Shown here: positions 24,991 to 27,449 of the stretch, one piece after another
How the letters are laid out: the number at the start of each line of letters is the position of its first letter
How positions within the stretch are numbered: the first letter of the stretch is position 1
NCBI GenBank assembly: GCA_027345185.1
Contig: DAHWIK010000009.1
Span: forward strand, 1 to 42,291
Source of the DNA: Microcaldota archaeon
GTDB taxonomy: Archaea > Micrarchaeota > Micrarchaeia > Micrarchaeales > CABMGC01
DNA: 42,291 nucleotides
Direction of reading: 5' to 3'
Translations under genes and position numbers: made by a program
The notes under the pieces: model-generated
What the model saw: the letters and a program-made list of their open reading frames with translations, nothing else
Told to the model about the DNA's origin: nothing
Databases searched by the model: none

Positions 24991-26430
24991 CTAGCCTTTG
25001 ATTACAGCAACCGGCACGTTTCTTGAAACAGGCTTTGCTATCTTGCTCTCCTTCACTACCTTGACAACCTCGTCTATGTCCTTGTATGTCCATTCCGCCT
25101 CTTCGCTTACGAGCTTCTTAGTGCGTATCCTTATGGTTATGTTCTTCTTGCTTAGGGATTCAAAGGTCCTGTCTGCTGTTATCTCCCTTAGTGCCTGGTG
25201 CCTCGACATGATTCTTCCGGCCCCATGACATGAGCTTCCGAACGTCTCTGCCATTGCACCCTCATCGCCACGCAGCACATAGCTTGCTGTGCCCATGCTT
25301 CCAGGTATCAGCACAGGTTGGCCAACGCTCCGGTATATTTTTGGTATATCTTCGTGCCCCTTTGCGAATGCCCTTGTGGCTCCCTTCCTGTGCACATAGA
25401 CCTTTCTCCTCTTCCCATCGACCGTGTGCTCTTCGACCTTTGCTATGTTGTGGGATAGATCATAGAGTATGTCCATTCCGAGAGCATCAGAGCTCTTGGC
25501 GAAAGTATCTTCGAAACTTTTCCTTATGGAATTGGTTATTATCTGCCTGTTGGTGAATGCAAAATTCACTGCACACTTCATCGCACCGATATAGTCATCG
25601 GCTTCCTTGTCACCTATCCTTGCATAGCCGAGCTCCTGATCAACAAGCACTATCTTGTTTTTCTTCTGGTAATCTAACAGGCTTCTTAGATAATCGCTGC
25701 AGGTCTGGTGCCCGAAGCCCCTTGACCCAGTATGAACCATTATGACCATCTGGCCCTCGTAAAGCTCATAGGCCTTTGCGGTCTTCTCATCGAATATTTT
25801 TTCCACTTTTTGGATTTCAAGGAAGTGATTTCCTGCACCCAGTGTCCCCAATTCATTAAGACCCCTTGACTTCGCCTCCTTGCTCACCTTTGAGAAGTCG
25901 GCACCTGCCATTGCGCCGTTCTCCTCTATACGTCCAAGGTCCTCGGTGGTGCCATAACCCTTTCCTATTATGTATTTTACACCCTCTTCTGCGACTCTTT
26001 CAAGATCGTTTGGAGTAAGGCCAATCTGCAGTCTGCTTCCCACTCCACTTGGGATGTTCTTGAACAGGGCATCAGAGAGCGGATTGATGTTTTTCCTTAG
26101 CTCGTCCTCTGTGAGATTAGTCTTTATCAACCTGACTCCACAGTTGATATCGAAACCTATACATCCTGGGGAGACTATGCCATTATCAGCATCGAATGCC
26201 ATCACCCCACCTATTGGAAATCCGTACCCTTCATGTCCATCTGGCATGACTAAAACGTTTCCAACCAAGCCAGGAAGAGTCGCTGCATTTGAGGCCTGTT
26301 GAGTGGTGTGGTCCTTGCTCATCTTGTCGAGGAGAACCGTGTTTGTGTACAGGATTACATCAGTATTCATGCCCTGCATTGTCTCCTTTTTGATTGTGTA
26401 TTTGTTATCAGTAATCCTCTCAATTCTCAT
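24991..26430 (-). CDS. rtcB: tRNA-splicing ligase RtcB, no intein
   Basis: MPDGHEGYGFPIGGVMAFD, GCIGFDINCGVRL, LGTLGAGNHFLEIQ, HTGSRGFGHQ, VHRKGATRAF, GSMGTASYVL, SSCHGAGR. Confidence 0.97.
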   Translation of the reverse strand: MRIERITDNKYTIKKETMQGMNTDVILYTNTVLLDKMSKDHTTQQASNAATLPGLVGNVLVMPDGHEGYGFPIGGVMAFDADNGIVSPGCIGFDINCGVRLIKTNLTEDELRKNINPLSDALFKNIPSGVGSRLQIGLTPNDLERVAEEGVKYIIGKGYGTTEDLGRIEENGAMAGADFSKVSKEAKSRGLNELGTLGAGNHFLEIQKVEKIFDEKTAKAYELYEGQMVIMVHTGSRGFGHQTCSDYLRSLLDYQKKNKIVLVDQELGYARIGDKEADDYIGAMKCAVNFAFTNRQIITNSIRKSFEDTFAKSSDALGMDILYDLSHNIAKVEEHTVDGKRRKVYVHRKGATRAFAKGHEDIPKIYRSVGQPVLIPGSMGTASYVLRGDEGAMAETFGSSCHGAGRIMSRHQALREITADRTFESLSKKNITIRIRTKKLVSEEAEWTYKDIDEVVKVVKESKIAKPVSRNVPVAVIKG

Positions 26431-26544
26431 CAGTATCAGATAAAATTGGATAGTAAGTATTATATATGAGATAATTTACTATTAACAAGCCCAATATACT
26501 TGGTATGAAACTTTAAATATAAGAGGTTATAATTACTAGGTGAT

Positions 26545-26647
26545 GCAGGGATGGCGGAGCCTGGTCAAACGCGACAGACTCAAGATCTGTTGGCTTAGGC
26601 CTGCGGGAGTTCAATAGACTTCTGAACAAATCTCTCTCCCTGCACCA
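26545..26647 (+). tRNA. tRNA-Leu (anticodon CAA) with ~15-nt T-loop insertion and encoded CCA
   Basis: GCAGGGA/TCCCTGC acceptor, D-stem GCG/CGC, anticodon stem ACAGA/TCTGT with loop CTCAAGA, variable arm GGC/GCC, T-stem GGGAG/CTCTC enclosing 22 nt instead of 7. Confidence 0.88.
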
Positions 26648-26675: not shown

Positions 26676-27449
26676 ATGTCTAAACTTTTGAAAAAGCAGG
26701 GCAGAAACAACAAGGCTCCAAAGAGAGCTGCAAGGAAGGCGGTGGCAAGAAGGCTAATCAAGAAGCCGGCCAAGAGGAACTCTGTCCCTGCAAAGGTCAA
26801 GCTTAAGGAGAAGGTTCTTTTCGAAATAGAACATTACCCGCAGACAGAGGAATTCACGAGCTCGGCTGCATGCGCAATGATGGTGCTCAGGCATGTAAAC
26901 ACTGACTTCAAGATGAAGAAGGAGGAGGAGTACAGCATATGGCAGGAAGCCGTTAATGGAAGCGTATGGCACGGATCGAAGTACGGCTTGGCATATTCAA
27001 TAGCAAAGAGGGGAGGAAAGGTAAAGATACTCAGCAACACAAAGGATGAGGGATATGACAGGAAGCTCGCAGTATACGAAAATGTCAATCTTGACACCCT
27101 TACAGCGTCATGGAATGAGATGAAGAAGAAATCTGAGGATGCAAAGGTAGAGGAGGAATTCACGAGCAACGTATCAGTTAATTTGGTGAAGAAGGCATTG
27201 TCAACAAACCATATACCCATAGTGCTTATAGACGCAAACGCGCTCAATCCGTACCTTGATTCTTCACCACACTGGATTGTCGTGAAGGGATATGACAAGG
27301 ATGCATTCTACATAAACGATCCATACTCAGACAGTACGATAACGTTAGACAACGATGCATTCAAGCAGGCATTGGGATACGACAATAACTTCCACATGGT
27401 TCTGACTGATACAAGGCACAAGGTTTTGCCCCAAAAGAAGAAGAGATAA
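26676..27449 (+). CDS. Peptidase C39-like (papain-like fold) protein with basic N-terminal extension
   Basis: TSSAACAMMVLRHV (Cys), PHWIVVKGYD (His), YINDPYSD (Asp); K/R-rich first ~45 residues. Confidence 0.7.
   Translation: MSKLLKKQGRNNKAPKRAARKAVARRLIKKPAKRNSVPAKVKLKEKVLFEIEHYPQTEEFTSSAACAMMVLRHVNTDFKMKKEEEYSIWQEAVNGSVWHGSKYGLAYSIAKRGGKVKILSNTKDEGYDRKLAVYENVNLDTLTASWNEMKKKSEDAKVEEEFTSNVSVNLVKKALSTNHIPIVLIDANALNPYLDSSPHWIVVKGYDKDAFYINDPYSDSTITLDNDAFKQALGYDNNFHMVLTDTRHKVLPQKKKR

Follow-up and report, generated by a model that had tools for sequence, protein, structure and literature searches.

A short T-loop insert, very probably a relaxed archaeal intron, in the tRNA-Leu(CAA) gene of Micrarchaeales

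The window, which is the whole stretch of 42,291 nt that was analysed, belongs to a genome assembly of 923 kb in 49 contigs that is 83% complete. It contains a class II tRNA-Leu(CAA) gene, flanked upstream by a gene for the tRNA-splicing ligase RtcB and downstream by a C39-peptidase-like gene (Table 1). The Rfam tRNA model matched positions 26545-26644 (43 bits, gathering threshold of 29) and placed the surplus letters in the T-loop. The acceptor stem is formed by 26545-26551 and 26637-26643, followed by A73 (26644) and the encoded CCA (26645-26647). The strands of the T-stem, GGGAG (26605-26609) and CTCTC (26632-26636), enclose TTCAATAGACTTCTGAACAAAT (26610-26631), and the excision of 15 nt (26615-26629) restored a T-loop of TTCAAAT. 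A box resembling CTTTAAATA was identified in 33 of the 55 tRNA-Leu(CAA) genes examined. The C39-peptidase-like gene lies 3' of tRNA-Leu(CAA) in every testable order-mate, ARMAN-2 included.

Table 1. Features at the tRNA-Leu(CAA) locus, in window coordinates; the intron and its cut sites are predicted.
Feature	Position	Strand	Basis or remark
RtcB, tRNA-splicing ligase	24991..26430	-	Pfam PF01139, E 3.5e-163
Box A-like promoter element CTTTAAATA	26511..26519	+	Starts 34 nt upstream of the tRNA-Leu(CAA) gene
tRNA-Leu(CAA) gene, class II, encoded CCA	26545..26647	+	Rfam RF00005, 43 bits; ARAGORN only after removal of the insert
Anticodon CAA	26581..26583	+	Sequence; ARAGORN call on the spliced form
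Outer (exon) helix h, 5' side GGGA, positions 49-52	26605..26608	+	Pairs with 26631-26634; minimum-energy fold; order-wide pairing
Central helix H, 5' side GUUC, positions 53-56	26609..26612	+	Pairs with 26624-26627; kept in 133/133 introns
Predicted intron TAGACTTCTGAACAA of 15 nt, at junction 58/59	26615..26629	+	hBH cut rule; register from the comparison of 133 introns
Central helix H, intron side GAAC	26624..26627	+	Variants in the order only GAAC/GGAC/GAGC/GAAU/GGGC
3-nt bulge B, AAA	26628..26630	+	Predicted cut between 26629 and 26630
Outer helix h, 3' side UCUC, positions 60-63	26631..26634	+	Minimum-energy fold; order-wide comparison
C39-peptidase-like (DUF3335) gene	26676..27449	+	PF11814; directly downstream of tRNA-Leu(CAA)

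ARAGORN made no call on the unspliced gene in the window and reported tRNA-Leu(CAA) when the 15 nt were taken out. Across the window's gene and 54 relatives, 0/55 genes were called unspliced versus 55/55 spliced, the removal of the insert leaving a standard mature tRNA in each. A tRNA-Leu(CAA) with a T-loop insertion had been described in an earlier, sequence-only reading of the window; its coordinates were all correct on re-reading, and the identification was supported by both programs. Four other tRNAs of the window's genome (L015, L019, L024 and L026 in G000) carry inserts near the anticodon, which are probably introns, and all four were missed by ARAGORN.

In archaeal tRNA splicing, the cut usually falls between nucleotides 2 and 3 of the bulge. 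The relaxed form of the splice motif, hBH or BHL (bulge-helix-loop), has been defined previously (PMC3978253, PMC6379350). The T-arm of the precursor reads, in order, GGGA, GUUC, AAUAGACUUCU, GAAC, AAA and UCUC, with a 4-bp central helix (GUUC/GAAC, kept in 133/133 introns of the order), an AAA bulge of 3 nt and a flanking exon helix (GGGA/UCUC). In the minimum-energy structure of the full gene, this hBH motif is present with one extra A-U pair on the helix. Relative to the mature T-stem, the UCUC strand is displaced by one step. The CUCUC run offers the 3' strand two pairing registers, shifted a step inward before splicing and normal afterwards. Folded alone, the T-arm favours another hairpin (z of -0.48, uninformative), and the whole precursor gives the hBH.

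The strict motif (hBHBh') was rejected in favour of hBH, as the 5' bulge and the 5' flanking helix are absent; the 5' splice site lies instead in a terminal loop, of 11 nt here and 6-17 nt across the order. The sequence-only reading had been unable to draw a strict BHB; the relaxed motif, one of the options it had listed, can be drawn, with its 3-nt bulge and 4-bp helix. The GTTCA/TGAAC hairpin that it had drawn is real as a helix, but equals the central helix of the hBH plus one pair and is no alternative to it. Under the bulge rule, the intron would be exactly TAGACTTCTGAACAA and the mature loop TTCAAAT. Three cut registers had appeared equivalent in the window. In the comparison of 133 introns, A58 is followed by A or T, and A59 is preceded by A, C or T; this variation settles the junction as 58^59, with the intron at 26615-26629.

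Of the 295 genomes in the class, 132 matched the interrupted-gene pattern, and every one of these belongs to the same order as the window. A second pattern, run on the whole order, added four genomes, so that the insert is present at the same site in 136/164 Micrarchaeales genomes, ARMAN-2 included; G028 was excluded, its match being an intronless sequence. The two extra matches of the pattern (G028 and G244) are GAGTTCGAGAGTTCAAATC, without the intron. The interrupted gene was also found in named Micrarchaeota records (one being the complete genome NZ_CP060530.1), as in Ca. Micrarchaeum sp. A_DKE, where the insert has 18 nt. Archaeal matches of the collection scan outside Micrarchaeota (L127, L184, L198 and L149) were not tRNA-like, and the order-wide pattern gave no intron-bearing T-arm fragments outside full genes. 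Two interrupted copies each were observed in G243 (C18:14363 and C32:1671), G288 and G223; those of G243 have differing introns and may reflect a strain mixture or a true duplicate.

Eight genomes of the order (five of genus g3, G036, G038 and G028) have a precisely intronless gene, with a loop of TTCAAAT or TTCGAAT. Both states occur within each of the genera g3, g18 and g26, and a fourth genus contains the intronless G036. For G013 and G038, the shared downstream gene shows orthology between the intronless loci and interrupted ones. Counted by genus, the distribution would most simply be read as about four separate changes, each a precise loss. A search for T-loop introns in other tRNAs, using a GG..CC stem pattern in 60 relatives, gave seven matches versus four in the reversed control; five of the seven had no ARAGORN tRNA, and L324 and L325 adjoin an ordinary tRNA. 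The long tRNAs of ARMAN-2 and G011 have introns at other sites.

The 133 tabulated introns (118 distinct) are 10-21 nt long, with a mode of 13; a 10-nt version is present in G044 and a 21-nt version in G003. The exon letters belonged to the search pattern, which in part imposes their constancy; the intron letters were left unconstrained. The strand facing GUUC was GAAC in 97, GGAC in 14, GAGC in 11, GAAU in 10 and GGGC in one, with no unpaired variant among the 133. These variants are spread over many genera, and all are G-U wobble changes that preserve pairing. The bulge was AAA in 126, ACA in five, UAA in one and AUA in one, and the outer helix had all four pairs in 131/133 and three of four in two. 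The positions of the intron loop are near-random (entropy near 1.8-2 bits). The intron helix was present in the minimum-energy fold of 32/55 whole genes, versus ~0.5% with shuffled introns, and was missing from that of the other 23. Judged from this comparison of introns, the motif is under selection.

An EndA-family (tRNA_int_endo) match over the cut-off was present in 38 of the 40 genomes searched, the exceptions being the window's genome and G015. The typical frame is ~390 aa and includes a second, degraded copy. All 30 endonucleases of relatives that were examined are of the three-unit ARMAN (epsilon-2) type and align with ARMAN-2 EndA, and all keep Y236, H251 and K282 together with the ASL residues Y160 and K161. 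Over 375 aa, the EndA of G031 shows 100% identity to the ARMAN-2 enzyme (PDB 4FZ2), and the same genome carries the T-loop intron, of 13 nt (L101). This identity, along with the named Micrarchaeota records that contain the gene, identifies the order as Candidatus Micrarchaeales. Cleavage of BHL/hBH motifs at a range of positions has been reported for the epsilon-2 EndA (PMC4033280, PMC6379350, PMC12397907), and its loop residues Y160 and K161 are reported to be required for this activity (PMC12397907). In the window's own assembly, EndA was found neither by Pfam nor with the protein of a congener. As the gene next to EndA in a congener is also missing from the assembly, an assembly gap is the likely explanation, and we infer that the endonuclease is present in this organism. 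The endonuclease type had been named by the sequence-only reading as a point to check; the answer, epsilon-2, comes from the 30 relatives, and the own assembly yielded no EndA.

The RtcB next door, to which the same reading had drawn attention, was confirmed by its Pfam match, and RtcB is upstream of tRNA-Leu(CAA) in 47 of the 56 testable loci. However, a different gene occupies this place in ARMAN-2; the proximity is only suggestive and is not needed for the intron case. The window's RtcB, of 479 aa, is apparently without an intein. Beside tRNA-Leu(CAA) in genus g3 (L348 in G112, L349 in G013), RtcB reads like an intein-containing version.

The insert might instead stay in the mature tRNA, where it would extend the T-arm as a hairpin. 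The T-arm alone does fold as a local hairpin, with GUUCA/UGAAC as its helix; however, retention would pair U54, U55 and C56, which are required for contact with the D-loop. A retained hairpin would also allow two-sided compensatory changes, and none was seen in the tabulated introns, while the exon letters TTCAA...AT form a normal T-loop, GUUC is invariant in all tabulated copies (in part imposed by the pattern), the intron length varies from 10 to 21 nt, and every intronless gene has a loop of exactly TTCAAAT or TTCGAAT. One-sided wobble changes beside a normal exon T-loop argue for a splice motif laid on an essential T-loop and not for a retained hairpin, which we consider very unlikely. Splicing by a route other than the endonuclease would accommodate the own genome, in which EndA was not detected, but EndA-family matches in 38/40 genomes and a motif that fits the known substrate rule make it hard to credit. 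Both options, a retained T-arm and another processing route, had been raised in the sequence-only reading, and both are disfavoured.

The same reading had also allowed for a pseudogene, with an intact tRNA-Leu(CAA) elsewhere, and for an assembly error at 26610-26631. At 83% completeness, the own genome taken alone leaves room for a missed copy. Nevertheless, its searches gave a single Leu(CAA), a second intact gene beside the interrupted one was found in no order-mate, and no genome among the 295 of the class had both the interrupted and the intronless form. All 51 genomes of the order that are at least 90% complete were accounted for (47 interrupted and four intronless), and the motif is under selection; a pseudogene is therefore exceedingly improbable. 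For an assembly or sequencing error at 26610-26631, no evidence was found, and related inserts occur at the same site in independent genomes (136/164 in the order) and in records that include the complete NZ_CP060530.1, which leaves such an error a negligible chance.

We are therefore highly confident that the insert, at position 58/59 of the sole tRNA-Leu(CAA) gene, is a genuine intron of the relaxed hBH type, of the kind processed by the archaeal splicing endonuclease. The T-arm of the precursor would refold so that 49-52 pair with 60-63 and 53-56 pair with the intron GAAC, which leaves AAA as a 3' bulge and places the 5' site in the terminal loop. The three-unit, ARMAN-type epsilon-2 endonuclease would then cut at AA^U and AA^A, and a ligase, for which the neighbouring RtcB is the simplest candidate, would join the exons. 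After ligation, the T-stem would slide one pair to reach its mature register, and the loop would read TTCAAAT.

The position of the intron also bears on the integration of mobile elements. Next to a gene for a tyrosine recombinase (PF00589), G028 has a tRNA-Leu gene whose 3' part, from the T-arm onward, is repeated. Among the matches listed, there were at least about 15 clear 3' tRNA-Leu fragments, in at least 13 genomes; by a hand tally of these matches, 11 full intronless tRNA-Leu genes had a fragment 1-8 kb downstream, out of ~129 full tRNA-Leu genes other than Leu(CAA). At several such loci (L353, L354 and L363), the tRNA is followed by recombinase-like frames. The T-loop lies within the repeated core, GAGTTCAAATCTCY..CCCTGCA, and so does the Leu(CAA) intron. 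At Leu(CAA) itself, no element entry was seen in any of the 58 loci with enough flank (~47 genomes, duplicates removed), the C39-like gene following directly; the intronless Leu(CAA) genes among the matches listed showed no evident insertion either. The contrast of 0/~47 for Leu(CAA) versus 11/~129 for other tRNA-Leu genes among the matches listed is weak, and the isoacceptors differ in sequence too. As separate observations, integrative elements of ~1-8 kb with a tyrosine recombinase occupy the UAG and CAG tRNA-Leu genes of Micrarchaeales (L347, L353-L363); their attachment core spans the T-arm, they are sometimes in tandem (three attachment fragments in G023), and the G028 element (L347, G028:C1:202500-213500) has an AbiEii-like gene aboard.

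Randau and Soll proposed that tRNA introns protect attachment sites (described in PMC3293823). An intron that splits the attachment stretch is consistent with, and not proof of, such a protective role. A speculative idea, which on balance we doubt, is that the T-loop intron owes its retention to the disruption of the attachment site (core GAGTTCAAATCTC..CCCTGCA) of a widespread family of tyrosine-recombinase elements that insert into other tRNA-Leu genes.

Relaxed non-canonical archaeal introns, including those of the T-loop, and an endonuclease of broad specificity are an established class. The closest known system is in the same order, in the tRNA introns and epsilon-2 EndA of ARMAN-2 (Ca. 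Micrarchaeum acidiphilum), on which Fujishima in 2011 and Hirata in 2012 reportedly published (cited in PMC4033280 and PMC6379350; see also PMC12397907). The cleavage assays consulted used tRNA-Ile(UAU) and tRNA-Cys(GCA). T-arm introns with strict or relaxed BHB motifs are also found in Crenarchaeota and Caldiarchaeum subterraneum (PMC3978253, PMC3293823), although there they occupy many sites in many tRNAs, whereas in Micrarchaeales one isoacceptor is interrupted at one site across the order. The permuted tRNAs of Thermofilum pendens, with a junction at 59/60, likewise combine a T-loop junction with a broad-specificity endonuclease (PMC3978253), but the Micrarchaeales Leu(CAA) gene is collinear with its intron. 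The intron may have been annotated before in ARMAN-2, itself a published case. The new elements are the conservation across the order, the exact motif with its junction, the selection on the motif, the intronless lineages and the overlap with the attachment core.

The Micrarchaeales thus offer a natural series of one tiny intron (10-21 nt) at one site, in ~136 species and with about four intronless lineages, from which the minimal substrate of the epsilon-2 endonuclease could be read in the sequence. As the standard finder ARAGORN drops the gene (0/55), tRNA-Leu(CAA) may be reported as missing in Micrarchaeales. At this locus, the proposed role of tRNA introns in shielding attachment sites against mobile elements can also be tested.
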